The notes under the pieces: generated by a model
Told to the model about the DNA's origin: nothing
Databases searched by the model: none
Seen by the model: only the letters and a program-made list of their open reading frames with translations
Assembly: GCA_944380185.1 (NCBI GenBank)
Contig: CALWGV010000049.1
Coordinates: forward strand, 1-63,224
Length of the DNA: 63,224 nt
Source of the DNA: an uncultured Lachnospiraceae bacterium
GTDB lineage: Bacteria; Bacillota; Clostridia; Lachnospirales; Lachnospiraceae
Direction: 5' to 3'
Part shown: positions 447 to 53,802 of the stretch, one piece after another
Numbering within the stretch: position 1 is the first letter of the stretch
Layout: each line of letters begins with the position of its first letter
Made by a program: the position numbers and the translations under genes

Positions 447-476
447 GTGCTGTAGTTACCAAACAGAAACTATTGT
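447..476. promoter_or_regulatory. Putative HxlR-type operator, copy 1
   Basis: This 30-bp element matches 4562-4591 at 28 of 30 positions. Its core is an imperfect inverted repeat, TAGTT(N)C ... AAACTA, with half sites at 453-457 and 468-472. It lies upstream of the SnoaL-like lipoprotein promoter. Because the second copy lies before an HxlR-family regulator, the simplest reading is an operator of that regulator. This is inference. Confidence 0.5.
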
Positions 477-503: not shown

Positions 504-1758
504 CTACTCAATATTTGCCGCGAACAGGAATCCATCCTGGGTGGCTTCTTTTACCTTGCCCACACGGCTGCAGTCGCCGATTATATAGGTTTCCGGTACG
601 ATTCCATAGAAGGACTGCGCCAGTTCCGAATTAGACTTCATACCGGCTGCAAGAATAATCCGGTCAACGGGCAGAAAGACCTCCGTTCCGTCGGCGCATA
701 CCGCCTTGACCCCTTCTTCCGTGATTTCGGTGCACCGCGTATTGGTCATGGCCCGCAGCGACCGGCAGCTGTCCATCCGTTCCTTCAGGGCCACCTGGTA
801 AAGGGTATTGGCAAGGGAATTCAGGGTTCCTGTCATTTCGACGATCGTAACCTCCCGGCCCATTTCCGCCAGGTCAATTCCCAGCTCGCAGCCGATGGTG
901 CCGCCGCCGACGACAAGAACCCTCTTTTTCACCCTGGCCTCTTCTCCCACAGGGAACTGTTCCTCCTTGTTCGCACGGGGATTAACCGAGCAGCCGAAAT
1001 TTTTGAAGCCGGAAGCCACGCCGAAGCAATAAAGGCAGCGCAGACAGGGACGGATATCCTCCGGTCGTCCGGCGTAAGCTTTTTTGACCCAGTCCGGGTC
1101 GGCAAGCAGGCTTCTGCCCAGCCATACGGCGTCGGCATAGCCGTCCCGCACCACCGTTTCCGCTTCGTCCGGCGTCATAATCGCCCCGACAACGGTAACG
1201 GGAATGTCAACATGTTCCTTCACATACCTGGAAAGTGCAATATTCGTCATGTGCTTGTCGATGGCATGGGTGGCCATATGGATATTCCCCTCAAAGACGA
1301 TATCCGCGCCGGCGGAAATATTCACCATGTCCACCAGATGCTCCTCGCTCATATCCTTCAGGAAACGAGCGACTTCCTCAATCTCCTGTCCAGGGCCGAT
1401 CCAGTCCTTTCCATTGATACGCATATCAATGGGGAAGTCCTTTCCCACCGCACGGCGGATGGACTGCAGGATCATCCGAGGAAATTTTATGCGGTTTTCG
1501 TAGCTGCCGCCAGAACTCCAGCTTTTCCTTGGTCTTAAGCAGGTTTTCCGTCGCGTAGGCGTTGACGCTGTGGGGCCAGATGCGCCCATTGGCGTCGTCG
1601 GTTACGAAACCGTCCCCCAGAACAATCAAAGAAACGCCGCTGGCGGCCTTTTCCCTGGATACATGGACGTCGATGGGGGCGGCAATCAGACGATTGCGCA
1701 GCATAACAGAACCCACCTTCAGCGGCTTAAAAAGATGCGGGTATCTCAATTCTGACAT
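504..1758 (-). pseudogene. Decayed old-yellow-enzyme/FAD-NADH oxidoreductase (BaiCD/2,4-dienoyl-CoA reductase type)
   Basis: The 5' part (start ATG at 1758, good AAAGGAG site) reads MSELRYPHLFKPLKVG...NRLIAAPI, the start of the FMN barrel of old-yellow-enzyme reductases. The frame then changes near 1505, and the second frame picks up at the conserved GGSYENR motif. About 100 barrel residues normally found between these points are absent. Later the Cys cluster (CLRCLYC...C) is present, but VLVVGGG of the first Rossmann fold runs directly into TIGCELGIDLAEMG of the second. The segment between the two glycine-rich motifs, usually over 100 residues, is therefore also lost. Intact relatives have about 640-670 residues; here about 415 codons remain in two frames. 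It lies downstream of the ACGX-type locus, 26 bases after the PNPOx-ferredoxin gene. Confidence 0.75.
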
Positions 1759-1784: not shown

Positions 1785-2399
1785 CTATGACCTGCGTTCA
1801 ATGGCGGAAACCGGGCAGTTTTCATAGCAGTTCCCGCAGTGCAGGCAGTGCTCCTGGCGGATTATGCTGGGGCTTCCCTTTTCAATTGCCCTCTGCGGGC
1901 AGAGGCCGACGCATTTCCCGCAGCTGATGCAGGCGTCGGTAATCCGATAGCCCTTGGGCACGGCCCTTCCGTTTCCGACCGTATAGGTTTCCCGAAAGAT
2001 GGGATTTACGCCGAGATGGAAATATTCGATGGTCATATCCCTTATACGGAAAATTATGCCGATGCTGCGGGTGTTTCCGGGATAAACGTTGGCCAGATAA
2101 GGCTGTTCTTCAAAAATCAAATCCCTCCACTTATCCTGCTCCTCCTCCGGCGCCGGCTCGACCTTTCCCGTCAGGCGGATCATTTCCTTATACATCGTAT
2201 AGCCGAGCACCTGCACCTTCCCCGTGTCCAAAAGCTCCCGGCAAAAATCCTTCCCCCTCGCCGTAAAAAAGTATATAGCATCCTCCTCATAGTGAATGGC
2301 GCTGATATTGCGCACCTGGGGATTTCCCTCCCTGTCAACGGTGGCAAAGGCCAAAACGCCCACATAGCCCAGTTTTTTCAGACAAGTCTGCGCATCCAT
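1785..2399 (-). CDS. PNPOx-like flavin-binding protein with C-terminal 2[4Fe-4S] ferredoxin domain
   Basis: This 204-residue protein starts at the ATG at 2399, directly after GGAGGTGAGAGAA; an upstream ATG in frame has no such site. Residues 1-130 form a split-barrel of the pyridoxamine-5'-phosphate oxidase type (LGYVGVLAFATVDREGNPQVR), a fold that binds FMN or F420. Residues from about 150 carry two CxxCxxCxxxC clusters (CISCGKCVGLCP and CLHCGNCYENCP), so it probably passes electrons between flavin and Fe-S. It starts 20 bases after the radical SAM gene stops, so they are likely co-transcribed. Supplying electrons to the radical SAM enzyme or reducing its product is a reasonable guess, not shown by sequence. 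Confidence 0.8.
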   Translation of the reverse strand: MDAQTCLKKLGYVGVLAFATVDREGNPQVRNISAIHYEEDAIYFFTARGKDFCRELLDTGKVQVLGYTMYKEMIRLTGKVEPAPEEEQDKWRDLIFEEQPYLANVYPGNTRSIGIIFRIRDMTIEYFHLGVNPIFRETYTVGNGRAVPKGYRITDACISCGKCVGLCPQRAIEKGSPSIIRQEHCLHCGNCYENCPVSAIERRS

Positions 2400-2419
2400 T
2401 TCTCTCACCTCCAAGTTTT

Positions 2420-3448
2420 TTAAGCTTTCCAGCATTCCGGATCCGGCGCATACATGCTGCCGTGAAAACCGGCGGCAACGGCAGGGCAGCCACGGCAGAA
2501 ACGCAGCAGCTCACATTTAGAACATTTTTCAAAGTTTTCGTAGACGCGATAACGGTCAAATTCCGGCCCGGTAAACAAATCGTACAGGTCGTCGCGCAGA
2601 GCATTTCCCACCTTGCTTTCCATGCGGCGGCAGACGTAAACCGCCTCGTCTGAAAGAACGGTAAGATGGCAGTTGCCGCAGTTGCAGCCCCCATAAACGT
2701 ATTCGTCGTCCGGGTAGGCTTTCGGATCAAAGAGGCCCTTTTCATAGAGAAACAGGGTCCACAGGTGATCCTTCAAATTAAAGGTCGTTTCACAGCCTTC
2801 GGCCTCATACTTCTGAAATTTCCGCCAGCACTCTTCCATCATCTCCCGATATTCTTCCGGAGAACAGCAGACATCCCGGTCCTCCTTCGACGGGCAGTAG
2901 CGGGCAAAGGCAAAGATATCCGCTTTGTTTTTTACCACCTCGTCCACCAGCTGCGGAATATCCCGCACATTCCACTTGGATATGGTGGTCATAATGGCCA
3001 CGTCAATACCTGCCTTTCGCAAAAGGGGAATGGCCGCCATCGTCTCGTCGTAGGAACCGGGCTGCTGCCGGATGCCGTCATGGGTCTCCCGCAGTCCATC
3101 CAGGGACAGCTGATACTTCCGGCAGCCGTATTCCTTCAGACGCAGGCAGACTTCCGATGTGAGATGAAAGGGATTGCCCATCAGGGTAAACTGGATTTGG
3201 GACAGTTTGAGAATTTTCATCAGCGTCCAAAACTGAGGATGCAGAATCGGGTCGCCTCCGGTAATATAAAAATAGGGAAGACGGCCCGCTTTTTCGCAGA
3301 ACGTCCTGCAGTTGTCCATCACCGTTACCATGTCCTCCAGGGCCATCTCCCTAAATTTCGCACGGCTGCCCAGCGCATAAATATAGCAATGCCTGCAGCG
3401 CTGGTCGCAAGCCTCCGTGATATGCCATTGAAACGCAAAATATTCCAT
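2420..3448 (-). CDS. Radical SAM/SPASM peptide maturase, ACGX-system type
   Basis: This 342-residue radical SAM enzyme has the CxxxCxxC cluster at Cys14, Cys18 and Cys21 and a GGDP-type SAM-binding segment (ITGGDPIL) near residue 66. Its C-terminal SPASM domain has many Cys (CNCGNC...CRRM...CSKCELLRFCRGCP), which would hold two auxiliary Fe-S clusters. Such proteins modify ribosomally made peptides. The gene directly follows a small open frame containing ACG-X repeats, which matches the family known as the ACGX system (recalled, not searched). The start ATG follows AAGGGAAGG. The modification chemistry, possibly a thioether at Cys, is inferred from SPASM relatives. Confidence 0.8.
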   Translation of the reverse strand: MEYFAFQWHITEACDQRCRHCYIYALGSRAKFREMALEDMVTVMDNCRTFCEKAGRLPYFYITGGDPILHPQFWTLMKILKLSQIQFTLMGNPFHLTSEVCLRLKEYGCRKYQLSLDGLRETHDGIRQQPGSYDETMAAIPLLRKAGIDVAIMTTISKWNVRDIPQLVDEVVKNKADIFAFARYCPSKEDRDVCCSPEEYREMMEECWRKFQKYEAEGCETTFNLKDHLWTLFLYEKGLFDPKAYPDDEYVYGGCNCGNCHLTVLSDEAVYVCRRMESKVGNALRDDLYDLFTGPEFDRYRVYENFEKCSKCELLRFCRGCPAVAAGFHGSMYAPDPECWKA

Positions 3449-3466
3449 TTTGATTTTCCTTCCCTT

Positions 3467-3588
3467 TTAAGCGGAAATATCCCCGCAGGCTTTTCCTCCG
3501 GCTTCTTGTCCCCGGCTCCGCAAGCAGCGCCGCAGGCCACAGCGGCCGTTTCCTCTTTTTCTTTGTGGAACAGATTCTTCAAAGACAT
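3467..3588 (-). CDS. ACGX-repeat precursor peptide (reading frame apparently shifted)
   Basis: A small gene starts at the ATG at 3588 behind a very strong AAAGGAGG site. It reads MSLKNLFHKEKEETAAV and then ACGA ACGA G, two ACG-X units typical of ACGX-type RiPP precursors. Read literally, the frame continues without a stop to 3325, through the ribosome binding site and about 120 bases of the radical SAM gene, which is unlikely for a precursor. In the neighbouring frame the end reads KACGDISA and stops at 3467-3469, just before the radical SAM binding site. A single missing base in the GGAAAAG run near 3490 would join the two into a peptide of about 40 residues with three ACG units. It may be a true mutation, a sequencing indel or, less likely, slippage. 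Confidence 0.65.
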
Positions 3589-3679
3589 TGTGTGATACCT
3601 CCTTTGCTTTTGTTCTTGTAAAATCTTTTATAAATGCAAGCGTGAGAGCTGCATCTATCAAGCTTATTTGATTGAAAAT

Positions 3680-3694
3680 GCGACATAATGTCGC
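3680..3694. promoter_or_regulatory. Perfect palindrome between divergent genes, putative TetR operator
   Basis: GCGACAT-A-ATGTCGC is a perfect 7+1+7 palindrome in the 196-base gap between the ACGX-type precursor and the tetR-family gene. On the plus strand it falls between a TTGAAA -35 (3673-3678) and a TATTAA -10 (3695-3700), spacing 16, that would drive the regulator. Binding there would repress the regulator and possibly the divergent peptide operon. Confidence 0.6.
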
Positions 3695-3784: not shown

Positions 3785-4372
3785 ATGCGAACCTACGACG
3801 CAGCCCGCAGCAAAACCAAAAGCGCCATTGTCCAGGCATTCTGGGAGCTATACCTGCTGAGAGATATTTCCAAGATTACCGTAAAGGATATCTCTGAGGC
3901 GGCCGGCATCCACAGAGCGACCTTCTATCTGTATTTCGACAGTGTGTACGCCGTATTGGATTCGATTAAATCCGAACAGCTCGAAAAGTTAAAAAAAGTA
4001 TGCTCTACCTATACCTCCAGTGAAAATGACTATGGAGATTTTCTCGCCGCCATGCGAAGCCTGTACGATGAAAACGAAACCTTTTTAGAGCCCCTTTTAT
4101 GCCGGCACCAGGGCCAGGAATTCGCCTCCGCGTATCGCCGGATCATGAAAGACAAGCTTCGCAGGGATATCGGATGGAAGCAATATCCCGAATCGTCAAG
4201 AGAGTATCTCTTGATCGATTCCATACTGAGCGGGATGATTGAAACCTTTATTTCCTGCCTCCGGACAAGAGCTATTCCCCTTGACTGCGCCTACCGAATT
4301 GCCTCCAAAAGCGTGGGAAGCGGGATTGCTCTTGCCATGGAGCAGGAGCTGGGCGTCATGATACTGCCCTGA
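3785..4372 (+). CDS. TetR/AcrR family transcriptional regulator
   Basis: This is a 195-residue protein of normal TetR length. Residues 8-55 are a TetR helix-turn-helix (AFWELYLLRDISKITVKDI, then IHRATFYLYFDSVYAVLD). The rest is an all-helical ligand domain with a C-terminal part like that of TetR_C proteins in Firmicutes. AAAGGAG lies nine bases before the ATG. It is divergent from the ACGX-type peptide/radical SAM operon with a perfect palindrome between them, so it is probably a local repressor of itself and that operon. The ligand is unknown. Confidence 0.85.
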   Translation: MRTYDAARSKTKSAIVQAFWELYLLRDISKITVKDISEAAGIHRATFYLYFDSVYAVLDSIKSEQLEKLKKVCSTYTSSENDYGDFLAAMRSLYDENETFLEPLLCRHQGQEFASAYRRIMKDKLRRDIGWKQYPESSREYLLIDSILSGMIETFISCLRTRAIPLDCAYRIASKSVGSGIALAMEQELGVMILP

Positions 4373-4561: not shown

Positions 4562-4591
4562 GTGCTGTAGTTGCCAAAAAGAAACTATTGT
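4562..4591. promoter_or_regulatory. Putative HxlR-type operator, copy 2
   Basis: This copy is 28/30 identical to 447-476, with the same TAGTT ... AAACTA dyad (4568-4587). It lies about 35 bases downstream of the predicted transcription start of the HxlR-family gene, where a bound protein could block elongation. The opposite placement at the lipoprotein promoter (upstream of -35) suggests different outcomes at the two sites. Confidence 0.5.
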
Positions 4592-4658: not shown

Positions 4659-4994
4659 ATGACAACACAAACCGTGAAAAAAGATTTGCCGGCCTGTCCG
4701 GTAGAAACGACATTGACGCTTATCGGGGATAAATGGAAGGTTTTGATTTTGCGCGATCTGATGCCTGGGACAAAACGGTTCGGCGAGCTGAAGAAATCCA
4801 TCGGGACCGTGTCTCAAAAGGTGCTGACAGCGCAGCTGCGGGATATGGAAAATAACGGACTGCTTACGCGGACGGTATATGCCGAGGTCCCTCCGCGGGT
4901 AGAATATTCCCTGACGGATTTGGGAAAAAGCCTGAAGCCTATTTTAGATGCCATGTGGAACTGGGGAGAGGAGTATAAGGCGCAGAATTCATAA
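4659..4994 (+). CDS. HxlR family winged-helix regulator
   Basis: This is a 111-residue MarR-like winged-helix protein of the HxlR family. It has the family opening CPVE(T)TL..IGDKWK with Cys13, the recognition-helix region (GTVSQKVLTAQLRDMENNGLL), and the wing and dimer helix PRVEYSLTDLGKSLKPIL. In YodB-type relatives an N-terminal Cys senses quinones or electrophiles, and Cys13 is in the equivalent place, so redox sensing is plausible. GTAGGAGG precedes the ATG. Its last 181 bases overlap, antisense, the 3' part of the GNAT frame. No co-transcribed target is visible; the matching dyad points to the lipoprotein at 1-324. Confidence 0.85.
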   Translation: MTTQTVKKDLPACPVETTLTLIGDKWKVLILRDLMPGTKRFGELKKSIGTVSQKVLTAQLRDMENNGLLTRTVYAEVPPRVEYSLTDLGKSLKPILDAMWNWGEEYKAQNS

Positions 4995-11343: not shown

Positions 11344-12138
11344 TCAGGCGAGCAGCATTCGGTCATTATCCAATGTTCCTCCGCTGGCCTGCTCGAATTT
11401 CTCCAGCAGATCCGCCACGGTCAGCCCTTTCTTCTCCTCACCGCGGACGTCGTAGATAATCCGCCCCTCATGCATCATAATCAGACGGTTTCCGATGTGG
11501 ATGGCATCGCGCATATTGTGGGTTACCATCATGGCCGTCAGACCGCCTCCTTCCACGATCTCCTCCGTCAGCTCCAGCACCTTGGCCGCTGTCTTGGGAT
11601 CCAGGGCAGCCGTGTGCTCATCCAGGAGGAGAAGCTTCGGCTCCCGCAGGGCCGCCATCAAAAGGGTCAGAGCCTGCCTCTGGCCGCCGGACAAAAGGCC
11701 GACTTTGACTGTCATCCGGTCCTCCAGCCCCAGACCCAGCTGCGCCAGTTTTTCCCGGTATTCCTCCCTCTCCTTCTTCGTCACGCCCCAGGAAAGCCCA
11801 CGGCTGCGCCCGCGCCTGGCAGCCAGGGCAAGGTTTTCATCGATCTGCATATCCGCCGCCGTTCCCAGCATCGGATCCTGGAATACACGGCCCAGAAGAG
11901 CCGCCCTTTTGTACTCCGGCTTGCGGGAGATATCGACCCCATCCAGGAATATCGTGCCGCAGTCGATGGGATAGACGCCGGCGATCATATTGAGGAGGGT
12001 GGATTTGCCGGCTCCGTTGCCGCCGATCACCGTCACAAAATCCCCCTTGTCCATCTCAAAATGGATATCGGTCAAGGCCCGTCGTTCATTGATGGTTCCC
12101 CGGTTAAAGGTCTTGCTCACATGACTGATCTTCAGCAT
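11344..12138 (-). CDS. ABC transporter ATP-binding protein, TrpXYZ-like importer
   Basis: This 264-residue ATPase has Walker A GGNGAGKST near residue 39, signature LSGGQRQALTLLMA, Walker B LLLLDEHTAALD and an H-loop (MMVTHNMRDA). The DEHTAALD form of Walker B is typical of the ATPases paired with the ABC_sub_bind substrate-binding proteins (TrpX type), which import aromatic amino acids or related solutes. The ATG follows GGAAGGAGG and overlaps the end of the permease gene by seven bases, showing tight coupling. It is the last gene of a three-gene operon. Confidence 0.9.
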   Translation of the reverse strand: MLKISHVSKTFNRGTINERRALTDIHFEMDKGDFVTVIGGNGAGKSTLLNMIAGVYPIDCGTIFLDGVDISRKPEYKRAALLGRVFQDPMLGTAADMQIDENLALAARRGRSRGLSWGVTKKEREEYREKLAQLGLGLEDRMTVKVGLLSGGQRQALTLLMAALREPKLLLLDEHTAALDPKTAAKVLELTEEIVEGGGLTAMMVTHNMRDAIHIGNRLIMMHEGRIIYDVRGEEKKGLTVADLLEKFEQASGGTLDNDRMLLA

Positions 12139-13070
12139 GTCTTCCCTCCTTCCCCGCTCTCCGAGTAACTGGCTGCCTGCCGCCGTTTTTCTAAAAAGGT
12201 AGGCACCGACAGGGCCACTGCCACCAAGGCTGCGGTAAAGAGCTTCATGTCATCGGTATTGAGACCCATCTGCAGTACCACCGCCACGATAATGCGATAG
12301 ATGCAGGAGCCCAGGACCACAGCGCTCAGCTTGACGGCAAAATTCCGCCTTTTTCCAAAGAGGACCTCGCCGATGATAATGGAGGCCAGGCCGACCACAA
12401 TTGCTCCGATGCCCTGCTTCACATCTGCATAGCCCTGGTGCTGAGAGATCAGCGCGCCGGACAGGGCCACTAACCCATTGCTGACCGCTAACCCTAAAAT
12501 CTTATAGAAATTGGTGTTCATTCCCTGAGAGCGGGCCATGTTTTCATTGCTGCCGGTGGCACGGATGGCCGATCCCATCTCCGTCCCAAAAAACCAATAC
12601 AAAACGGCAATCAGCATAATCAGGACCACAACGCCCACCAGGATACTGACCCAAGCCTTCTCAAGCCCCGTAGCATCCACGATTCCATTAAAAACCGTCT
12701 CCACCTTGAGCAGGGGCTGATTGGACTTGCCCAGAATACGCAGATTCACGGAATAAAGCCCCAGCTGGGTCAGTATTCCGGCCAAAATAGCCGGGATGCG
12801 GCACTGCGTATGCAGAATGCCCGTGACTGCCCCGGCCGCCACACCGGCCAGAGAAGCGATGAGGGTGGCGGCAACCGGGTCAAGTCCAATCTCCGCCAGC
12901 AAAATACCGCAGGTACAGCCGCCCAGGGCAAAGCTTCCATCCACCGTCAGGTCGGCAATGTCCAGTATGCGGTAGGTAATATATATACCCAGCGCCATAA
13001 TACCCCACAGTGCGCCCTGGCCTACTGCGCCCTGCATGGCTTTCAATATACTGATAATCATGTCCGGCAT
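12132..13070 (-). CDS. ABC transporter permease, TrpY-like
   Basis: This 312-residue membrane protein has eight to nine hydrophobic segments. The sequence YITYRILDIADLTVDGSFALGG near the N-terminus is characteristic of branched-chain-type permeases that accompany TrpX-like binding proteins. It sits between the binding protein and the ATPase genes. The ribosome binding site is weak at both the first ATG (13070) and the next one (13061), so the exact start is open. Confidence 0.88.
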   Translation of the reverse strand: MPDMIISILKAMQGAVGQGALWGIMALGIYITYRILDIADLTVDGSFALGGCTCGILLAEIGLDPVAATLIASLAGVAAGAVTGILHTQCRIPAILAGILTQLGLYSVNLRILGKSNQPLLKVETVFNGIVDATGLEKAWVSILVGVVVLIMLIAVLYWFFGTEMGSAIRATGSNENMARSQGMNTNFYKILGLAVSNGLVALSGALISQHQGYADVKQGIGAIVVGLASIIIGEVLFGKRRNFAVKLSAVVLGSCIYRIIVAVVLQMGLNTDDMKLFTAALVAVALSVPTFLEKRRQAASYSESGEGGKTC

Positions 13071-27087: not shown

Positions 27088-30000
27088 TTATCCGTTATTC
27101 TGCATCTTTTTTCTGCGGACCATGATGCCTGCTGCGGCAATCGCGCAGACGCCCACTGCCGCCAGACAGATCCACAGCCCGATGTTGGCATTGTCGCCGG
27201 TCGGCGTTGCGCTTCCCGAAGCAGCTCCGGGATTATTCTGATTCTGTCCGGAGTTTCCGCCGCTGCCGCTGCCGCCAGGGGTGCCGGGCGTCGTCTGCTC
27301 ATTCTTCACAAACTCCGCTATGATTTCCACATTGCCGGTCACATAGGCGCCCTTGATCGTCACTGCGCCGGTGGCTGCGTTGTAGGTATAGCCATCCGCC
27401 GGGATCAGCTGTCCGCCGATCTTTACCTGAATGGATTTCGGCAGAGAATATCCCGCATTTGCCTTCAGCGTAAAGGACAGGTCCTTACCTGCCTCCACCG
27501 TCGCCGGCACATCCGCCGTTCCGCCGGTGAGGGTTAACGTCACCTGCACCATCTCCGGCTCCGGTTCCGGCTGGCTCTGAGCCGGCTTGATCTCGGAGCG
27601 GTCACGCACTCTCAGACGATTGCCCTCGGCGTCATGGGAGACAAAGCCCACCGCGCTGATATAGGCGCCTTCCTTTACGAAATCCTCCAGCTGCTCGGAA
27701 GCCTCATCGGAATATCCGATATATCCGTCGACAAACACACGGCAGCTTACGCCGCTCTCATCCATCACACGGATACTCTCCACAATTCCGCCGGCCATGA
27801 TTACCTCCTGCACCTGGCCCTCCACGCGGACCAGTTTGCCGAAGTTTGTATCATAGTCATCTGCTTCCTTGGTCGTGACATCCGTGATCACCACGTTTTT
27901 GCTGCCCTCCAGAACCGTCACATTGATGGCAGAAAGCTGCTTGTCGCCGATATACTCGCTGAGCGAGCCGGTGATCATGACCTGATCGCCGCGGCGAATC
28001 GTATTATCGTCGATGGGGAATACATTGATGCCGTTGCCCTCATCGTCCTGAATGTAGATCGTGTTGAAGAACGCGTTGCCGGACTCGGCCGTGCCGTTGG
28101 CCACTGTTCCGATGACGGTAAACACTTCTCCGTCCTGACCGGCTCTCGCCTCCATAATGGTGCTGATCTCAGGCTCCTTCTGGACCATTCTCAGGATATT
28201 CTGAGCAATGATGCCGTTGGCGTAGCTGACCTGGTCCTCTGCCGCCACCTCAAAGTTGGAGCAGAATACCGTGCCGGACAGGAACACTCGTCCCTCTCCC
28301 ACGGCCTCCGTGGCCATAGCCACTACCTCGCCCTTCGGCACCACGGCAGTCTCCGCACTGTATTCACTGCTGTAGCTCAGCACCGGCTTGCTGTGCCCCT
28401 GTGCAGGGCTCTTACTGTTGATGGAGTAGGTGGTGTCATGGCCGTAGACGATAGCCGTTCCATCCCCTACGCTCACCGAGCAGCCGGAGTAGGAACTGTA
28501 AGCCAGTTCGGATTCCTCCACACCCTCCAGGACCTGCTGCACCACAGGATCCTCGCTTTCCATATTAAAATCATCAAAGTACAGGCGATAAGGCTGTCCG
28601 CCGTTTTCATCCTGGTCGATCAGCTCATCGTCATTGACCCGCATGGTGGATTCCATAGCTTCGAGAAGCTTGTTGATCTGTGCATAGGTCGTATAAGGCA
28701 GACCGCTGTTGGCATCCTGGTAGTCGGCCAGGCCGCAGAGGATCACGGTACCGCCGCCCTTCACGTAATCTGCCACCAGCTGCACGAATTCATCCTCAAA
28801 CACGCTGGGCTGTGCATCTCCGGTATAATCGCTGGTGTATTTCAGCGGAGCGGAGATGACAAAGAGAGCGACGTCCGCCAAGGTTTCCGCGGTGATCTCC
28901 TCACCGGGCTGCGCGACCCGTACCTGGATGTTTTCCGCGGTGCCCATGTTGATCAGATTCGTCATGTTGCCGGAATAATATCCGTTTACATAGTCGTTAT
29001 AATGAGTGCCATCAATCAATACCTTAGTAGCGATGGCCGGGTCGGACACACTGAGCTTGAGCACATCGGTAAAAGTGTACTCTTCACCGCCGATCAGGGC
29101 CTTCATCTGCACATTGATATTGAATCCTCCTGCCTGATTCGCCGTGTAAGGGAAGGAGTAGTCATAGGACATTCTGGCCCCCACCACACCGTCCACGCCG
29201 ATCTGAGAGACATCCGCCGTGTGGAAAGGTTCATTCTGTCCTTCCATCGTGTAGGTCAGGGAAGTCACGGTCATATCCTGGTTCAGATTGTTGTAAATCT
29301 GGCTGGAAATATTGATTTCATCCCCCTTGATGGGCAGCGCCACATCACTGGCCGTCTTGGAAACGCCGGCATTGACGCTCTCGCCTACCCACACAGGGGC
29401 CGTGACGGCGATATCCTTATCCGCCTGCGTAATGCGCAGGTAATAGTAACCGTAGCTGGCCGCCAGGTTGTCAAAGGTAAGGTCCGCCGAACTGCCCTCA
29501 AAGGTCTGCTCCGCCAGGGTCTGTCCGCCGTTTACGATGACCTCCACCTTGGTCGTGCCGGCCGTATCCGTGGGATCCTCGATGGACACCGCAATGTTGA
29601 TCTCCTCCTGCTCATCCAGGATAGAGCCCATGGCATTGCCGTTCAAAGAGTACAGGATCGACAGGTCGTTGTCCTCCGTGGCGTACACACGGTAGTTCTT
29701 CATGGCATCATAGATTGCTTCCTCTGTCAGGTTCTCAGCCAGCACCACGCTGCGGGCCGTGTTGGAATCGCCCCAGTTGCCCTTGTGGTTGTCCTGGTTG
29801 TTGGTGGGCGCCACATGCCAGCCCTTGTCCAGAGCGCGGGTATAGTAGCTGTAGGACGGGAAGTATCCGCTGCTGCCGATGGCTCCCTCGCCGTTGCCGA
29901 CCTCGATCAGGGTCACCTGGTTGTCCGTCACCGGATCATACAGGGCAAAGTCCATAAAGTCACCGAAGGTATCTCCCGGATGATTAAACTGGGAAATGGT

Positions 30001-32940
30001 CTCCGGATTCTCATTCAGCGTGTCAAAGTATGCCTGCAGTACCTCGTAATTGTCACCCTTCCGGTAAGGGGCATAGTTGCGGCTCTCAAATCCTTCTGAA
30101 TTAAAGGTATTGATATGGCCGGGAGCACCGCCGGACCAGGTCATCTCAAAGCCGTACAGGCCGACGAAAGTGCCGTCTTCGCGGGCAGTGATATCCCGGG
30201 CTGCCTGGCGTCCCTCATGCCACTCTGCACTCACCGATTCTGCATTTTCATCACCCAGATGGACAGCGCCATCGTTATCAAAGGAGTTAGAGTGATCGGT
30301 AACCGCCAGGAAATCCAGATTTTCTACCCGGGATGCATGGTCAAAAGCCTGCGTCACTGATCCCGTGCCGTCAGACAGGTTGGTATGCGCATGGAGCTGA
30401 CCGAAATACAGAGTGTAGTCGTTCAGGGACATAGGCGCCTTGTAGGTGAAGGTGAACACTTCGCCTGTCTGCGCCTCCGTGCCGGCAGTCTCATCGGCAG
30501 GCATATAGGCCACAGCCTTGATAATCACCGGTTTGTCCTTATCCGGCGTGTTCTCAATCACAATGGGCGCGGTATATTTCTGCTCGGAAGCAGTCACATC
30601 CGGATCAGCCGGCGTCGTGCCGTCTGTGGACATGGTATAGTAGATCTCCGCCCCGTCCGCAGTCGTCAGCGTAATCTGCTGCCCTGCTTCCACGCTGGCC
30701 CCGCTCTTAGGCGAAGCTGCCACTTCCAGTCCTTCTACTGTAGGTTCGTCCGGATCAGGGGTATCCGAGGTCGATACTTTGTAGAATTTCAGCTGGAACA
30801 TTCCTTCGCTGCCAGGCGTGATATTGTAGTACGCGCTCCAGTTACCGTTGCTGTCATACCATTCGATATAAGCATCGCGCACCACGTTCTTGACGTAATA
30901 GGTGCCGTTTCCGGCATCTTCCAGTACCCACTTATCATTCTTCTCACCCAGCGGCATACTGCTGTAACTGTCTCCCATGGCAAGATTCTGTCCATTATAG
31001 GAGAAGCTCCAGGTGTTATCGCCGTTATCGATAACGGTCCAGATATCCGCTTCCGTGTAGCCGGACAAGGTGCCGTCTGTTCCTACCTCTATCTCTGTTC
31101 CCATATTATAGTAGTTGTTGGGTCCACCATACACAGAAGACAGAGCCATATTGTAGGCCGGCGCATAGATGACCACCTGCTCTCCGTCGGCAATCGGATC
31201 AGTTGGTTCAGGCCCAGGAATATCCGTTACCTTATAGAATTTCAGCTGGAACATTCCTTCGCTGCCCTCAGCAATATTATAATAGGCGCTCCAGTTATTG
31301 TTGCTGGCAAACCATTCAATATAAGCGTCGCGCACCGTATTTCTGACATAATAGGTGCCGTTTGCCGCATCTTCCAGCACCCACTTATCGTTCTTCTCGC
31401 CCAGAGGCATGCTGGTAAAGCTGTCTCCCATGGCAAGATTCTGTCCACCGTAAGAAAAACTCCAAGTGCCGTCACCATTGTCGATAACTGTCCAGATATC
31501 TGCTTCTGTATAGCCGGACAAGGTTCCATCCGCTCCTACCTCTACCTCTGTTCCCGTATTATAGTAGTTGTTAAATCCACCATACACAGAAGACAGAGCC
31601 ATATTGTAAGCCGGTGCATAGATCACGACCCGGTCGCCGTCGGCGATAGGGCCCGCAGGTTCAGGACCAGGATCAGAGGCTTCCGACACTATATAAAATT
31701 TCAGCTGGAACTGCTTATCTGTAGCTGCACTGCTGGAATTATATGTGCTCCAGTTACTATACAGGGCATACCATTCCATATAATTTCCGCGCGCAGTGTT
31801 ACGAATATTGTATAATCCGTTATCCAGGGCAATGATCTCCCAATCATCGTCAGCCGCCCCTAAATTCATGCTGCTATATCCATCGGATATACCTATATTC
31901 TGATCATTCTGCCGGAAGCTATAAGTACCGTCTCCATTGTCTACTACAATCCAGATATCAGAATCTCCATAGCCGGTTATTGTTCCGTCTGAATTTACTG
32001 TAATATCCGTTCCTTTGTTATAATTTCCAGTTTTTTCAGAAGACAACGCCTTATTGTAAGCCGGCGCATAGATCACAATCTGGTCGCCGTCAGCAAACGG
32101 GGCTACAGGGGTATCCGACTGGATCGTATATTGAAGGCTCTGCACCGCACTGTATACGCCGCCCAGCTCTGCCACAGCCTTCAGCGTACATGCCTTAGTG
32201 ATAACCGGTTTGCTGTCATCACTGTACAGTTGGCGGGAATCATTATCCGCATTATCAGGAGCGCTTCCATCCAATGTATAATAGATCTGCGCGCCCGCCG
32301 TAGCACTAGTCAGCGTAATCGTTGTGCCGGCAGCCACTGCCCCGGCCTGAGGATCAGCCTGAGGAGCCGCTACTGTGGACCCTTCCTCACCGCCGCCATT
32401 CAGCTTATACAGAGTAAACTCGCTGGGATAGCCGCTGGGATTTCCAGTAACCGTGGTGTCTTTGTAAGCTCTGAATCTGTTCTCTGACCCCTTATTGCTG
32501 GCCAGTCTGACTGTGTCCTCTCCCACTCCGTGGAAGACGAACTTGCCATCAGCAGATGTCCACTCCCAGCTGTATGAGCCCGCCTGGATGCCATTATTAT
32601 TTCCGCCTGGCGGCGCAATAGTATTTCCATCACTGAGCTGGATTGACACACTATTACCCTCAACAGTCAGATCCACCACTGCGGCTCCCGGATTCGTTAT
32701 CGTATCACCCGATGGAGACACTGATATGGCTGACACCCACGTCCCGTTCATCGGTCCGACCGCATATCCGGTATCCACCACCATCACATACTTGCCGGTT
32801 GTAAACTCTTCCTTCGACGAGATCTTCTCATAAGTCTCCGGCTCCTCCGCCATGGCAGAAGTGGGGACCACGGAAAACATCATCAGCAGTGCCAGGAATA
32901 CAGACAGGACTCTGTGCAGGCCCTTTCTCATCTTCCTCAT
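27088..32940 (-). CDS. Giant cell-surface PHP-domain (CehA/McbA-like) multidomain protein
   Basis: This protein has 1950 residues. An N-terminal signal peptide (KGLHRVLSVFLALLMMF, then a cut near AMA) opens it. Two chitobiase/hexosaminidase C-terminal-like beta-sandwich motifs (about 195-275 and 740-830, YYTLDGSAPDN and YYTMSTDGTTP) flank three ADGD..VIYAPAYN modules of about 150 residues (285-735). A PHP metallohydrolase domain of the CehA/McbA type follows (about 845-1130, FGQLHAHTNLSDG and VTDHSNSFD). Then come an Ig-like part, a ThuA/glutamine-amidotransferase-like part (about 1230-1450), OB-fold segments like YhcR (about 1460-1660) and a Cys-poor beta domain. The C-terminus TPTGD, hydrophobic helix and RRKK resembles a sortase signal variant. 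Substrate unknown; phosphoester or glycan-linked targets are possible. Confidence 0.8.
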   Translation of the reverse strand: MRKMRKGLHRVLSVFLALLMMFSVVPTSAMAEEPETYEKISSKEEFTTGKYVMVVDTGYAVGPMNGTWVSAISVSPSGDTITNPGAAVVDLTVEGNSVSIQLSDGNTIAPPGGNNNGIQAGSYSWEWTSADGKFVFHGVGEDTVRLASNKGSENRFRAYKDTTVTGNPSGYPSEFTLYKLNGGGEEGSTVAAPQADPQAGAVAAGTTITLTSATAGAQIYYTLDGSAPDNADNDSRQLYSDDSKPVITKACTLKAVAELGGVYSAVQSLQYTIQSDTPVAPFADGDQIVIYAPAYNKALSSEKTGNYNKGTDITVNSDGTITGYGDSDIWIVVDNGDGTYSFRQNDQNIGISDGYSSMNLGAADDDWEIIALDNGLYNIRNTARGNYMEWYALYSNWSTYNSSSAATDKQFQLKFYIVSEASDPGPEPAGPIADGDRVVIYAPAYNMALSSVYGGFNNYYNTGTEVEVGADGTLSGYTEADIWTVIDNGDGTWSFSYGGQNLAMGDSFTSMPLGEKNDKWVLEDAANGTYYVRNTVRDAYIEWFASNNNWSAYYNIAEGSEGMFQLKFYKVTDIPGPEPTDPIADGEQVVIYAPAYNMALSSVYGGPNNYYNMGTEIEVGTDGTLSGYTEADIWTVIDNGDNTWSFSYNGQNLAMGDSYSSMPLGEKNDKWVLEDAGNGTYYVKNVVRDAYIEWYDSNGNWSAYYNITPGSEGMFQLKFYKVSTSDTPDPDEPTVEGLEVAASPKSGASVEAGQQITLTTADGAEIYYTMSTDGTTPADPDVTASEQKYTAPIVIENTPDKDKPVIIKAVAYMPADETAGTEAQTGEVFTFTYKAPMSLNDYTLYFGQLHAHTNLSDGTGSVTQAFDHASRVENLDFLAVTDHSNSFDNDGAVHLGDENAESVSAEWHEGRQAARDITAREDGTFVGLYGFEMTWSGGAPGHINTFNSEGFESRNYAPYRKGDNYEVLQAYFDTLNENPETISQFNHPGDTFGDFMDFALYDPVTDNQVTLIEVGNGEGAIGSSGYFPSYSYYTRALDKGWHVAPTNNQDNHKGNWGDSNTARSVVLAENLTEEAIYDAMKNYRVYATEDNDLSILYSLNGNAMGSILDEQEEINIAVSIEDPTDTAGTTKVEVIVNGGQTLAEQTFEGSSADLTFDNLAASYGYYYLRITQADKDIAVTAPVWVGESVNAGVSKTASDVALPIKGDEINISSQIYNNLNQDMTVTSLTYTMEGQNEPFHTADVSQIGVDGVVGARMSYDYSFPYTANQAGGFNINVQMKALIGGEEYTFTDVLKLSVSDPAIATKVLIDGTHYNDYVNGYYSGNMTNLINMGTAENIQVRVAQPGEEITAETLADVALFVISAPLKYTSDYTGDAQPSVFEDEFVQLVADYVKGGGTVILCGLADYQDANSGLPYTTYAQINKLLEAMESTMRVNDDELIDQDENGGQPYRLYFDDFNMESEDPVVQQVLEGVEESELAYSSYSGCSVSVGDGTAIVYGHDTTYSINSKSPAQGHSKPVLSYSSEYSAETAVVPKGEVVAMATEAVGEGRVFLSGTVFCSNFEVAAEDQVSYANGIIAQNILRMVQKEPEISTIMEARAGQDGEVFTVIGTVANGTAESGNAFFNTIYIQDDEGNGINVFPIDDNTIRRGDQVMITGSLSEYIGDKQLSAINVTVLEGSKNVVITDVTTKEADDYDTNFGKLVRVEGQVQEVIMAGGIVESIRVMDESGVSCRVFVDGYIGYSDEASEQLEDFVKEGAYISAVGFVSHDAEGNRLRVRDRSEIKPAQSQPEPEPEMVQVTLTLTGGTADVPATVEAGKDLSFTLKANAGYSLPKSIQVKIGGQLIPADGYTYNAATGAVTIKGAYVTGNVEIIAEFVKNEQTTPGTPGGSGSGGNSGQNQNNPGAASGSATPTGDNANIGLWICLAAVGVCAIAAAGIMVRRKKMQNNG
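30755..32110 (-). repeat. Three tandem 450-bp coding repeats in the giant surface gene
   Basis: Three copies of a module of about 150 codons follow each other with periods of 450 and 453 bp. The two inner copies (about 30755-31205 and 31205-31660) are very similar at the DNA level, with shared stretches across VIYAPAYNMALSSVYGG. The third (to about 32110) is more diverged, indicating an older and a younger duplication. Confidence 0.8.
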
Positions 32941-33018: not shown

Positions 33019-34230
33019 TTAAACGCGCTTCCCCCTTGACATGAAACGCGCACTGATTGCCGCCACAATGGGAACGGTGAGCAGTATACCCATGGCTCCC
33101 GCAATGCTCTGGATAATTTCGATGCAGATATAGTCGGTGTTGACCAGCTGCAAAAAGGGGATGTCATAGGTCTGAACCAAAATCAGCATATTCAGCGAAG
33201 AGCCGGCGAAGGCCAGGATCAGCGTATTGGCCATGGTTCCCATGGCGTCCCGCCCGATCTGCATACCGGAGCGGAACAGCTGACCTGCCGTCATATCAGG
33301 CTTCTGCTCGCGCAGTTCCCAGACTGAGGATGCGATGCCCAGAGCCACGTCCATCACCGCTCCCAGCGCCGAAATCAAAACGCCGCAGACCAGCAGACCG
33401 CTGATCTTCAGTCCTCTGTCCGCACCGTACAGAATCAGATTTTCCGCCTCGGACATATTAAAACCATTCATCGGCGTGATGTTTCCCACAACAGCTGCGA
33501 TCACGCCGGCCACCACTACACCGGTCACGCAGCCCAGAATGGAGCACCACGTCTTGGTGGAAAAGCCGTTCAGCAGAATCAAGGCTCCCGCCGCTGTCAC
33601 CGCCACGATCGCCACCGTGATCATCAGGGCCGGAATACCCCGGATCAGGCAGGGAATCAGAATAAACCAGATGCACCCCAGCGTAAACAGAAGGCCAAGC
33701 AGGGCTCCCACGCCTTTTTTCCCTCCCAGGACTGCCAGAAGGACAAAAAAGATCAGCACAAAAATGCCCAGAACCCGCCCCCGATCGTAGTTAAACAGAG
33801 AGGCATAATAACCGCCCTCCTCATCGGTCATAATGCGCACGATGATTCTGTCCCCCACATCCAGATCGACATTGAATAGGGCGCTCATATAGTTGGTGAG
33901 CTGCATAATCTCATCTTCATGGACGCCTGTCAACAGACGTATCTCCAGCTCCTGTGTGCCTACGCGCCGTCCCTCCGCATATTCATAGTCGGGCGCGGCA
34001 TCGTCCTCCAGCACTGCGGTTACCACCGCCTTATCGTACACCAGCTGACTGGCGCTGGTGGGGATTGCCCCTTCCTCGGGCTGATTAACCCAAATGCCAA
34101 AGCCAATCAGCGCAGCAAAAACCACCGCCATCACGGCCAGACGCGCAATATTGCCCGGCCTCTGCACCCAGCTTCTGACGGCAGCTGCATCTTTTTTCAT
34201 CTCTTTACGGCCATTACTTGCCATCTTCAT
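33019..34230 (-). CDS. YibE/F family membrane protein
   Basis: This 403-residue integral membrane protein has a first helix near residue 35, an extracellular domain of about 100 residues (ELEIRLLTGVHEDEIMQLTNYMSALFNVDLDVGD), and then seven or more helices. Typical YibE/F sequence is seen in FNMSEAENLILYGADRGLKISGLLVCGVLISALGAVMDVALGIASSVWEL. The function of the family is not settled. The start at the ATG at 34230 has GGAGGAACC just before it. Confidence 0.85.
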   Translation of the reverse strand: MKMASNGRKEMKKDAAAVRSWVQRPGNIARLAVMAVVFAALIGFGIWVNQPEEGAIPTSASQLVYDKAVVTAVLEDDAAPDYEYAEGRRVGTQELEIRLLTGVHEDEIMQLTNYMSALFNVDLDVGDRIIVRIMTDEEGGYYASLFNYDRGRVLGIFVLIFFVLLAVLGGKKGVGALLGLLFTLGCIWFILIPCLIRGIPALMITVAIVAVTAAGALILLNGFSTKTWCSILGCVTGVVVAGVIAAVVGNITPMNGFNMSEAENLILYGADRGLKISGLLVCGVLISALGAVMDVALGIASSVWELREQKPDMTAGQLFRSGMQIGRDAMGTMANTLILAFAGSSLNMLILVQTYDIPFLQLVNTDYICIEIIQSIAGAMGILLTVPIVAAISARFMSRGKRV

Positions 34231-34342
34231 TGGTTCCTCCACAGCTTGTTTGCCAAAAAGAACATACAGCAAAATCTTTAAGACAAGATTATGTTGAGAT
34301 CAAATTCATCAAAAAAGAGCGTTAAATCAAAGATGTGTTCAG

Positions 34343-35626
34343 TTATTGCTCCACCATGATTTTCAATATCTCCCGGTCTGTCTCCCGCATTCCCTCACGG
34401 CCCAGCTGTCCCACACAGTCGATAGTATTTTCAATGCCCTTTTTGACGATTCCCTCGCCGCCGCGGAATTCCCTGCCGTTTTTGGCCATATCGAGAGCCA
34501 GCAGAGAGGAATCCAGGGAAGCGGCGATTTTGGCCGCGCAGGAAGGCTTGGCCCCATCGCAGATCATGCCGGAGGTAATGGCCAGACAGTTGACTACCTG
34601 ATGGCGAATCACATCATCGCTCTCATGCATCAGCCAGGCAATGCCGGCTCCCGCCGCACAGCCGGCGCTGACCGCCCCGCAGTAGGCCGAAAGCCGTCCG
34701 ATACCGGCTTTTTGATGGAGGGAGAGAAGGTTGGCCAGAACCAGCGCCCTGTACAGCTCCTCCTCACTGGAACCCAGCGTTCTCGCATATTCAATCACTG
34801 GCACGGATACCGTGATTCCCTGATTGCCGCTGCCGGAATTGATAATCACCGGCATCTCGCAGCCGCTCATTCTGGCATCGGATCCGGCGGCTGCCATGGC
34901 CTTGACCCGAATCTTGACATCGGAACTGTCATTGCAGGCAAGGATCGTCTGGCCCACACAGGCGCCCCAGTCATTGCGCAGTCCCTCCTCGGCAATGGCC
35001 AGATTGTAGCGGATCTGCCGTCCGATGACCTCCCGCACGTCCTCCAGCTCACAGGTGCGGGCAAAGTCCAGGATATCTTCCACGGTCATAAAATCCTTTT
35101 CCGTCGGGGACCCGCCCTCTCCGCCGCAGTCAACGGTTTTTTCGAGGAGGATTTCGCCGTTCTTTTCTATATACACTATATTGGTATGCTCATTGGCAAT
35201 ACGGACCACCGCCCTGTCATGCCCTGCCGTCAGCGTGATCACCAGATCAAAGACCAGACCGGACGAAGCAACGCCTACTTCCACCATATCCCGGGTCAGC
35301 AGCTGCCGTATTTTCTCCTTTTGTTCCGCAGAGACTTCACTGATGACTTCCAGCCTGCGCTCAGCCCTTCCTGCTACCACCCCCGCCAGGGCAGCCGCCT
35401 CGATGCCCTTCAATCCGTCGGTATTGGGTACCGTGACGCTCTTTACATTCTTGATAATATTGCCGCTGGCCTCCACCAGGATTTTTCCCGGAAACTGCCC
35501 CAGCACATCTCTGGCCTTCGCCGCCGCATAGGAAATGGCAATGGGTTCCGTACACCCCATGGCCGGCACCAGCTCTTTTCTAAGTGTGTCTGCATATTTC
35601 CGGTAAAGCTCGCTGTCCCGTTTCAT
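34343..35626 (-). CDS. L-cysteine desulfidase family protein (UPF0597/CyuA-like)
   Basis: This 427-residue member of the serine dehydratase alpha-like/L-cysteine desulfidase family degrades L-cysteine to pyruvate, sulfide and ammonia with a 4Fe-4S cluster. It has the family opening KELVPAMGCTEPIAISYAAAKA with a conserved Cys, later Cys in ACND, SGCEMPVIINSGSGNQGI and YCGAVSAGCAAGAGIAW, and the end segment SGMICDGAKPSCAAKIA. An AAAGGAACAGGATGAG context precedes the ATG. It lies about 110 bases upstream of the YibE/F gene in the same direction. The region 35627-35792 is AT-rich leader without a gene. Confidence 0.9.
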   Translation of the reverse strand: MKRDSELYRKYADTLRKELVPAMGCTEPIAISYAAAKARDVLGQFPGKILVEASGNIIKNVKSVTVPNTDGLKGIEAAALAGVVAGRAERRLEVISEVSAEQKEKIRQLLTRDMVEVGVASSGLVFDLVITLTAGHDRAVVRIANEHTNIVYIEKNGEILLEKTVDCGGEGGSPTEKDFMTVEDILDFARTCELEDVREVIGRQIRYNLAIAEEGLRNDWGACVGQTILACNDSSDVKIRVKAMAAAGSDARMSGCEMPVIINSGSGNQGITVSVPVIEYARTLGSSEEELYRALVLANLLSLHQKAGIGRLSAYCGAVSAGCAAGAGIAWLMHESDDVIRHQVVNCLAITSGMICDGAKPSCAAKIAASLDSSLLALDMAKNGREFRGGEGIVKKGIENTIDCVGQLGREGMRETDREILKIMVEQ

Positions 35627-35792
35627 CTCATCCTGTTCCTTTCGCTTTAATCTCCCGTAAATTTTTAATCGCGGTTTGTTTTCATCCGGCTTTCATCGTC
35701 TTCATTGTCCTTTATTATAATTTTAATCAATAATGCGCTTCAGCACAACCATTATTTATATAAATTTACCAGAAAATCTCCTTTTTCCGCCT

Positions 35793-52194: not shown

Positions 52195-53802
52195 CTAAAA
52201 GCCTGCATAGATCGGATCCACCGGAATATAGTTGGCTCCATATGCGCCGAAAACAATAACAAACAAGGCCAGCCCCAGGCAGGCAGTCAGCCGAATGACC
52301 GCCGTCCCCGTCTCCAGCCGCTCCCGCAGATCCACTCCGCGTTCAGCCAGAAAATGCACTGCCGCCACCAATAGCAAGGTGAATGCAGCGATGAAGAAAT
52401 CCTGCATATCCAGCCCCAGGCAGAGGACTGTTCCGTCCTTAAAGGATGCCAGGGTAAAGCCTGCAACCATTCTGCCAAACATGGCAAAGCCGGCCTTAAG
52501 CCCTTCCGCCCGAAAGAACAGCTCACCTACGCAGACAATCAGGCCCGTCCTTATGATCTGCATCGCGCGGTAAGGCAGACTGTCCCTGTCAATCCCATAC
52601 CTGGCAGTCAGCCGCCTCACTCCCGGCTCCGTGATATTTTCAAACATGATCCAGGCAAAATGATACAGGCCAAAAAAGATATAGTTCCACCCGGCTCCAT
52701 GCCAAAGGCCGTTGCCCAGCCACACAGCAAACAGAGCCGCTCCGGAAGAGAGAACAGCCGCTCCACGGCTGCCAAAACGCCCGCGCATCTTTCGCGCCAT
52801 TCCTGACAGCCAGCCGGATGTCGTCATTGGATAAAAAATGTAATCCTTAAACCATGTGCCCAGGGTAATATGCCACCGGTGCCAGAACTGGGATATGCTC
52901 CGGGAAAGAAACGGGCGCTGGAAATTCTCCGGCAATGTCACACCGAAAGTTTCTCCGCATCCTATAACCACGTCCATAGTTCCGGAGAACTCCATATAGA
53001 GCTGAACTGTGTACAGCACCATCCCCAGCGCCATGATTCCGCCGTCGTAGCTGCCGTAATTCCCGTAGATCTCCTTGATCGCCGGATTGAGCCGGTCGGC
53101 AATAACCATCTTTTTTAACAGGCCGAAGCCGATCCTCTGCAGGCCGCGGGTCAGACCTTTCCAGGTGACCGGCCGTCCCTCCCACAGCTGTCCCGCTGTC
53201 TGGGCATACCGGCAGATGGGGCCTTCCATGATCTGCGGGAAAAACACCATATACAGGGCAAGCTTGGGAAGCAGTCTCTCCGCCCGAATCGTTCCCCGGT
53301 ACACATCCGTCAGATAGGAAACGGCCTGCAGCGTGTAGAAGGATATTCCGATGGGCAGAACAAAGGACGGTACGTGAACAGTCAGAGACAGCCCCAGCAG
53401 CTCGCTCAGCCGATTAAGGTTAAAGGCAAAAAACGAAGAATACTTGAGGACAATCAAAATACCCAGCTCCATAAACACGCCCAGGATCAGAAGAACCCGC
53501 CGCCGCCCTCTATAGAGTTTCTTGATTGCTCTTTTCTCCCTTTTCAGATCAGCGGACGCCCTCAGCTCTGCTATCTCTTTTTTCTCCTCCTTTTCCAGGG
53601 CTTCCAAGCCCAGCCCTGCCCCATAGACCGAGAGGGTGGTAAAGAGCAAAAAGACCAGCAGACGGCCGCTCATCTCCCAAAAGAGGGCATAGCTGGCGCC
53701 AAGAAGCACCCAGGGACGCAGTCTGCGCGGGCAAATCCCATAGACGGCAATCACCGCCGGAAGAAAAATTCCCAAAAACACTAGCGAGCAATAGGAAGTC
53801 AT
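52195..53802 (-). CDS. MBOAT family O-acyltransferase (AlgI/DltB-like)
   Basis: This 535-residue membrane protein has ten or more helices. MBOAT features are PIGISFYTLQAVSYLTDVYRG, FFPQIMEGPICRY, a FLSRSISQFWHRWHITLGTWFKDYIFYP block and the active His in NGLWHGAGWNYIFFGLYHF. It would move acyl groups across the membrane for O-acylation of a surface polymer. The ATG at 53802 is preferred (AGGAGAAAGG upstream); an earlier ATG at 53823 is in frame. It is paired with the SGNH-like gene downstream. Confidence 0.93.
   Translation of the reverse strand: MTSYCSLVFLGIFLPAVIAVYGICPRRLRPWVLLGASYALFWEMSGRLLVFLLFTTLSVYGAGLGLEALEKEEKKEIAELRASADLKREKRAIKKLYRGRRRVLLILGVFMELGILIVLKYSSFFAFNLNRLSELLGLSLTVHVPSFVLPIGISFYTLQAVSYLTDVYRGTIRAERLLPKLALYMVFFPQIMEGPICRYAQTAGQLWEGRPVTWKGLTRGLQRIGFGLLKKMVIADRLNPAIKEIYGNYGSYDGGIMALGMVLYTVQLYMEFSGTMDVVIGCGETFGVTLPENFQRPFLSRSISQFWHRWHITLGTWFKDYIFYPMTTSGWLSGMARKMRGRFGSRGAAVLSSGAALFAVWLGNGLWHGAGWNYIFFGLYHFAWIMFENITEPGVRRLTARYGIDRDSLPYRAMQIIRTGLIVCVGELFFRAEGLKAGFAMFGRMVAGFTLASFKDGTVLCLGLDMQDFFIAAFTLLLVAAVHFLAERGVDLRERLETGTAVIRLTACLGLALFVIVFGAYGANYIPVDPIYAGF

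Follow-up and report, generated by a model that had tools for sequence, protein, structure and literature searches.

A second ACGX peptide-maturase locus in a Lachnospiraceae bacterium, most likely damaged by a deletion in its precursor gene

The locus and its genes

The 63,224 bp stretch analysed here (the window; positions 1 to 63,224 of contig CALWGV010000049.1, GenBank assembly GCA_944380185.1, from an uncultured Lachnospiraceae bacterium) was found to carry, close to its start and on the minus strand, a short frame for an ACGX-repeat precursor peptide, followed by genes for a radical SAM/SPASM maturase and for a fusion of a PNPOx-N domain with a 4Fe-4S ferredoxin. The locus is of a known kind, the ACGX system, and was most likely damaged by a deletion. 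Its central features are as follows; related loci are designated by L numbers.

3598..3603 (-): ribosome binding site AGGAGG of the precursor, 9 nt 5' of the ATG at 3588 (direct reading)
3325..3588 (-): literal open frame of 87 amino acids, entering the maturase gene (reading of the open frame)
3484..3588 (-): authentic part of the ACGX precursor, with leader MSLKNLFHKEKEETAAV, one ACGAACGAGDKK unit and the linker PEEKPA (TIGR04341 match and phase of L003, L004 and L009)
3476..3489 (-): remnant 3' arm of the precursor-maturase hairpin (CCTGCGGGGATATT), without the 5' arm (aligns to the arms of L006, L008, L009 and L010)
3467..3469 (-): TAA closing the 'KACGDISA' frame, regarded as a chance stop in what was once intergenic DNA
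2420..3448 (-): radical SAM/SPASM maturase, intact (TIGR04340 rSAM_ACGX; PF04055, PF13186)
1785..2435 (-): PNPOx-N/4Fe-4S ferredoxin fusion, intact (domain matches; recurrent partner of ACGX maturases)

The precursor frame starts MSLKNLFHKEKEETAAVACGAACGAGDKKPEEKPAGIF at the ATG at 3588 on the minus strand, behind the very strong ribosome binding site (3603-3598) noticed in the original prediction. After the linker PEEKPA the literal frame continues through unrelated residues until a stop that ends at 3325, which is 124 bases inside the maturase gene (ATG at 3448) and agrees with the overlap of about 120 bases described earlier. The frame therefore does not close before the maturase gene, closure being a property recognised in the present comparison and outside the curated model. 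The alternative frame gives KACGDISA and then TAA at 3469-3467, ahead of the maturase start, again as described. Compared with the TIGR04341 model (ACGX-repeat peptide, target_ACGX), the small frame scored 24.8 bits over residues 1-35 and profile positions 1-54 of 65, which falls below the curated cut-off of 28 bits. It was judged to be more than a chance match because of its E value of 2.5e-5 and, going by its sequence, is a truncated relative of the TIGR04341 family.

The maturase scored 587.3 bits against TIGR04340 (cut-off 400), which places it in the ACGX family; its second-best family, the SbtM-type SPASM maturases of TIGR04082, gave 182.8 bits, far under the cut-off of 350. PNPOx_N and 4Fe-4S domains were found at 1785-2435, so that the small frame does lie upstream of the two genes named in the original prediction, and the pairing of such peptides with SPASM enzymes is borne out by a TIGR04340 maturase adjoining a TIGR04341-like precursor. 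The non-synonymous divergence (dN) of the maturase from seven relatives was 0.06-0.11, and its ratio to the synonymous divergence (dN/dS) was 0.02-0.07 in six of them, a rough value since dS was 1.6-4.0 in these and saturated in the seventh. Both measures would reflect long-term constraint only, and the conservation may predate the lesion.

Site and nature of the lesion

A maturase search of the genome collection yielded 105 relatives, and the best 80 entered the comparison. The maturases of the closest, L003-L010, are 84-89% identical to that of the window and, with the exception of L007, each locus runs from a precursor of one or more units and its stop codon through a hairpin to the ribosome binding site and start of the maturase gene. 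The original prediction had proposed that a one-base change at the A-run near 3490 separates the precursor from its true end. The proposal does not hold, since GDKKPEEKPA has the phase of the window in L003, L004 and L009 (Blautia schinkii DSM 10518) too, which puts the A-run in frame; L009 shares in addition the DNA GGAGGAAAAGCCTGC. The window departs from precursor DNA after CCTGC, where CCTGCGGGGATATTTCC begins, a few bases beyond the A-run, and the deletion junction was placed within CCTGCGG. Thus, the locus is of the ACGX type and its precursor is defective, as had been predicted, while the defect itself is at another site and of another nature.

The 41 nt between the junction and the maturase start gave their best alignment with the 3' arm of the hairpin in four of the seven closest precursor-bearing relatives (L006, L008, L009 and L010), at an offset of 31-33 nt past the precursor stop that is common to all four; 4, 19, 2 and 27 of 500 shuffles, respectively, equalled the score. 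Scanning the window on both strands for words complementary to this arm, with up to one mismatch, disclosed only the 3' arm itself and no left arm, so that the 3' arm alone remains of the hairpin, another element recognised here and outside the curated model. The segment KACGDISA is thus most likely the translation of the surviving hairpin arm and not precursor sequence; its likeness to ACG codons would come from the joining of two GCCTGC-like words. A true peptide with three ACG units and this ending, as had been envisaged, is not supported. The literal frame enters the maturase gene because the later repeats, the stop codon and the left arm of the hairpin are gone.

Taken together, these data suggest that the locus is probably a damaged second copy of an ACGX peptide-maturase system in a gut bacterium, whose precursor would have lost the latter half of its length by a deletion and not by a one-letter error; the intact system would make a Cys-Gly peptide acting in thiol, quinone or electrophile stress. 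The precursor keeps its leader and one CGxxCG unit and then joins DNA matching the hairpin 3' arm at a short common word, GCCTGC (about 6-8 bp). A single deletion between two GCCTGC-like words would take out every later unit together with the stop and the left arm. It may have been a microhomology-mediated event that took place in the cell when the locus was already on its way to losing function, internal deletions being present in the adjacent OYE gene as well, and an intact ACGX locus elsewhere in the genome may have allowed it to be tolerated.

Compared with the ACGX system as modelled by TIGR04340 and TIGR04341, the window locus is alike in its maturase above cut-off and in an adjoining precursor with an ACG-ACG-GDKK unit; it is unlike in that this precursor is truncated, under cut-off and fused to hairpin-arm DNA, and in that an intact system lies elsewhere in the genome.

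Arrays that run into the maturase gene

The arrangement was tallied over 112 distinct loci, the window included and L084 dropped as a duplicate of L004. An array was present in 104; four (L007, L086, L134 and L137) had none in the roughly 1400 bases scanned, and in four others (L017, L064, L126 and L133) the upstream DNA was too short. The maturase gene of L086 is cut by a contig end, and that of L137 scores under the family cut-off. L118 has an array without an in-frame leader start, and the array of L014 is cut by the end of its contig (171 bases upstream).

Only 2 of the 104 arrays run into the maturase gene, those of the window and of L067 (Oscillibacter valericigenes An411), and they do so by different lesions. 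In L067 a separate frame-breaking lesion follows KPA, about 120-260 bases before the maturase gene, and the precursor concerned is the sole TIGR04341 match in its own genome. The comparison with related genomes that the original prediction called for therefore revealed no conservation of a literal frame kept into the maturase gene.

L007 (Candidatus Fimimorpha faecalis) encodes a maturase 86.5% identical to that of the window, with PNPOx-ferredoxin, Zn-macrodomain and SirTM genes. No precursor was found there by motif in the 13-kb locus or by TIGR04341 genome-wide, a model that also misses the single-unit precursor of L005. At L134 (contig C11 of genome G351) the maturase gene has an in-frame TGA and a nearby SirTM gene a TAG, with no precursor in the bases scanned; this may be a further ACGX-SirTM operon in decay.

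A hairpin between precursor and maturase genes, at z < -2 (60 shuffles each), was detected in 66 of the 70 loci in which the two genes are 45-200 nt apart, the window and L067 being excluded. Long exact repeats (at least 20 nt) occur inside 30 of 101 arrays.

Weighing of the explanations

The same deletion might have arisen in the deposited sequence and not in the cell, if repeats and a GC-rich hairpin close to a contig end led to an artefact of assembly or amplification. The genome is a draft of 112 contigs, 84% complete; the lesions are clustered in the first 3.6 kb of the contig, and short repeats of the kind that artefacts also favour are present at the junctions. Such an artefact is still in play because the lesions cluster near the contig end and a single assembly is at hand. 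However, 17 of 20 other proteins of the window align to a family without a break, 16 of them along most of the profile, and on this ground genome-wide sequencing error was rejected. The damage appears confined to the ACGX locus, and therefore real decay is favoured. In addition, the shared words (6-14 nt) are far below the k-mer lengths usual in assembly, and no leftover array was found elsewhere in the genome: TIGR04341, which can miss very short precursors, matched only on contig C49 (the window; G000:C49:3484-3588) and on contig C92. The latter carries a second ACGX locus with an intact maturase and an intact precursor scoring 78.5 bits, and because of it the loss of the window copy could be tolerated. 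An artefact thus seems unlikely, though it has to be reckoned with.

The shortened gene might instead be functional, one CGxxCG unit behind the leader being sufficient and the foreign tail harmless or trimmed. The complete precursor of L005 has indeed only 29 residues and a single unit, and the window maturase is intact and conserved in protein sequence. That conservation may, as said, be older than the lesion; moreover, the tail reads through the maturase start, while the L005 precursor has a normal stop and hairpin, and we regard this explanation as rather doubtful. A one-base error or mutation at the A-run would mechanically yield a short peptide with three ACG units ending in KACGDISA, but the literal phase is held across the run by L003, L004 and L009, none of the precursors displayed has a KACGDISA-like end, and the segment matches the hairpin arm, all of which makes it highly improbable. 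Programmed ribosomal frameshifting at the run can be given hardly any credence: there is an A AAG run behind a GGAGG, but the two are in direct contact, while stimulators of -1 shifts are placed further upstream, and relatives read the region in one frame, with array run-in restricted to the window and L067 and due to different lesions. A gene with programmed frameshifting was therefore rejected, its slippery site and frame layout not being conserved in relatives, together with the A-run change, on the phase of the relatives and the hairpin homology.

Several results weigh against a deletion in the cell as set out above. The arm match of L004 is 7 nt long and was equalled by 53 of 500 shuffles for the first 19 nt and by 130 of 500 for the whole stretch; the best post-junction match of L003 is the ribosome binding site region (2 of 500 shuffles), and for L005 it consists of 7 nt that lie off the hairpin arm (185 of 500). 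Nor is the hairpin universal, as 25 loci with a gap under 45 nt and seven with a gap over 200 nt stood outside the 70 tested. A general predisposition of the family to array-hairpin deletion was rejected, words shared between array and intergenic DNA being no longer than chance (median 6 against 6.2 in shuffles; n=69 loci, with the window, L067 and L048, which has runs of N, left out). As for the other proteins of the window, 33022-34272, 34349-35629 and 12135-13070 gave no family match at 1e-30 and are uninformative, and one further tested protein, at 52198-53805, matched a family only in part, over positions 105-376 of 380 and from its residue 140 on.

Regulators and oxidoreductases around ACGX loci

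Among the 71 loci with enough DNA, 44 have a divergent HxlR gene within 2 kb upstream, and 62 have, within 1.5 kb downstream, at least one of three genes, for an MDR protein (PIG3-like quinone reductase), a nitroreductase or PNPOx-ferredoxin. Homologues of the last lie within 1.5 kb downstream in 18 of the 71, and MDR genes occur anywhere in the locus in 37 of 80. The window likewise has an HxlR gene, with its cysteine at position 13, and Cys13 is invariant in all 50 aligned HxlR proteins of ACGX loci. A conserved N-terminal cysteine, which we take to be the thiol sensor of HypR/YodB-type HxlR regulators, is thus present. A search for an HxlR operator common to the family was negative, since 2 of 39 spacers matched against 0.6 expected, and 2 against 2.3 with a looser pattern. 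Among the neighbour clusters found in at least four loci just one was transporter-like, an ABC ATPase in four loci. L005 (8346-8972) and L008 (7671-8297) hold a second PNPOx-ferredoxin paralogue, 30-32% identical to that of the window, between the first and the macrodomain gene.

In the intact system, expression would be controlled by the HxlR protein, probably thiol-sensing, or by a TetR repressor, and the Cys-Gly repeat peptide would be made in excess over the maturase owing to the hairpin between the two genes. The radical SAM/SPASM enzyme would modify the Cys-Gly units, and the peptide, presumably retained in the cell, may work under thiol, quinone or electrophile stress alongside flavin/NAD oxidoreductases. 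SCIFF/ranthipeptide systems similarly combine a Cys-rich peptide with a SPASM maturase and lack an evident exporter, although their precursors are of another family. To be set against this functional part is that gene neighbourhood is the single source of both the function and the intracellular role, and that many neighbour frames of ACGX loci had no family assignment.

Association with SirTM and Zn-macrodomain genes

Of the 58 loci with 4 kb of DNA, 17 have a SirTM gene and 15 a Zn-macrodomain gene no more than 5 kb downstream and on the same strand. The former was assigned from one representative that matches the solved structure 5a3a (E 3.9e-61), and the latter by NF003163 (360 bits, cut-off 272). 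At the level of the order, 392 genomes were surveyed, of which 26 have an ACGX maturase above cut-off and 121 a SirTM match at 1e-30, a level at which other sirtuin-like proteins may also pass. SirTM was found in 19 of the 26 ACGX genomes against 102 of the 366 others (Fisher p 5.5e-6, a statistic that ignores kinship), and most SirTM genomes (102 of 121) are without ACGX. By a hand count among the matches listed, the SirTM gene is 0.7-4.3 kb downstream on the same strand in at least 12 of the 26 (G101, G118, G157, G269, G273, G291, G308, G324, G329, G344, G351 and G394).

The window locus itself has neither gene and is thus not part of a SirTM/Zn-macrodomain operon. Apart from both ACGX loci of this genome, contig C47 (L169, 619-3746) carries an operon-like run of SirTM, Zn-macrodomain, a PNPOx-ferredoxin paralogue and, by eye, an Rrf2-like regulator.

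According to the available text of PMC4518038 and PMC11490716, the extended SirTM operon (GcvH-L, LplA2, OYE, LLM) has lipoylated GcvH-L as its modified carrier, encodes OYE and LLM oxidoreductases besides, and is linked to oxidative stress; the 2024 Zn-macrodomain paper adds, in the text available, that the targets of other SirTM/Zn-macrodomain systems remain elusive (PMC11490716). As far as this text goes, ACGX loci resemble the extended operon in that some carry the SirTM/Zn-macrodomain pair and most carry flavin/NAD oxidoreductases, and the window locus has an OYE-type neighbour; they differ in that the neighbours recurring in at least four loci gave no conspicuous GcvH-L-like cluster (LplA was not searched for), and the SirTM/Zn-macrodomain pair of the window genome is on C47. 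GcvH itself was tested for 13 of the 20 ACGX loci with SirTM in reach (completeness of these genomes unmeasured): six genomes (L005, L006, L007, L008, L009 and L013) have no GcvH-family protein, while seven hold one somewhere in the genome.

The redox and ADP-ribosylation neighbourhood hints at a role of the ACGX peptides. As a tentative proposal, more doubtful than probable, they may be intracellular thiol carriers of a redox/electrophile stress system that take the place of the lipoylated GcvH-L of the extended operon, and they might serve as substrate for the adjoining flavin/NAD oxidoreductases and be reversibly ADP-ribosylated by the SirTM and Zn-macrodomain proteins encoded nearby. Shared stress regulation alone could also account for the co-location with SirTM. 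If true, the proposal would name a substrate for SirTM/Zn-macrodomain pairs outside the extended operon, for whose targets ACGX peptides now become named candidates, and give ACGX its first function. A literature search, with most subscription papers outside its reach, yielded no description of the ACGX product, no report of an ACGX-SirTM link and none tying ACGX, SirTM or HxlR to radical SAM; in the text available, 'radical SAM' is absent from PMC11490716, 'radical' from PMC4518038 and 'ACG' from PMC10352776. The lesion alone matters little, and the part worth following is this neighbourhood: the comparison gives ACGX a testable setting, with an HxlR regulator bearing an invariant cysteine, flavin/NAD oxidoreductases, and SirTM downstream in the order-level genomes counted above.

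Other features of the window

The genes and sites that flank the precursor, maturase and PNPOx-ferredoxin genes are listed below.

504..1758 (-): OYE/FadH-type flavoenzyme gene with internal deletions (two overlapping frames; Oxidored_FMN pieces)
3680..3694 (no strand): palindrome GCGACATTATGTCGC, possible TetR operator (direct reading; role conjectural)
3785..4372 (+): TetR-family regulator, divergent from the precursor (PF00440)
4659..4994 (+): HxlR-family regulator (PF01638, 120.9 bits, above cut-off)
452..476 (+): operator-like 25-mer, first copy (near-identical twin at 4567..4591)
4567..4591 (+): operator-like 25-mer, second copy, upstream of HxlR (near-identical twin at 452..476)

The OYE gene is shorter than its relatives, as judged by comparison with solved structures. 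A frame break occurs near 1502-1511 (GGCGGCAGCT), and two Rossmann motifs are apparently fused near 901-914 (GTCGTCGGCGGCGG), both exact junctions being approximate readings. The fusion is suggested by the C-terminal frame, which aligns to residues 215-444 and again to 528-668 of the solved homologue 6qkg, query residues 193-232 being in both pieces. The N-terminal piece matches solved structures weakly (best E 2.5e-4). No intact relative of the gene was detected in 150 family genomes at 1e-60, the window itself being the only match.

Homologues 29-32% identical to the window TetR protein adjoin the ACGX loci L020, L021, L022, L024, L028 and L029. The sequences are labelled as those of methanogenic archaea (Methanomethylophilaceae, Methanomassiliicoccaceae, Thermoplasmata), and their maturases share 73-75% identity with that of the window; the TetR gene stands there in the usual place of HxlR, and array lengths vary. 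A sequence similar to the window palindrome, CGACACTTTGTCG, precedes the L004 precursor. The window HxlR protein scored 139.4 bits against NF047364 (RrpB), below the cut-off of 175.

The two near-identical 25-mers flank the locus, and no such pair occurred in 100 shuffles; the copy at 452-476 precedes a lipoprotein-like gene at 1-324 and the other precedes the HxlR gene, so that a regulator common to both sites is possible. Farther along the window, 27088-32940 encodes a putative surface protein of 1950 residues with, by eye, a signal-like N-terminus and a membrane-anchor-like C-terminus.

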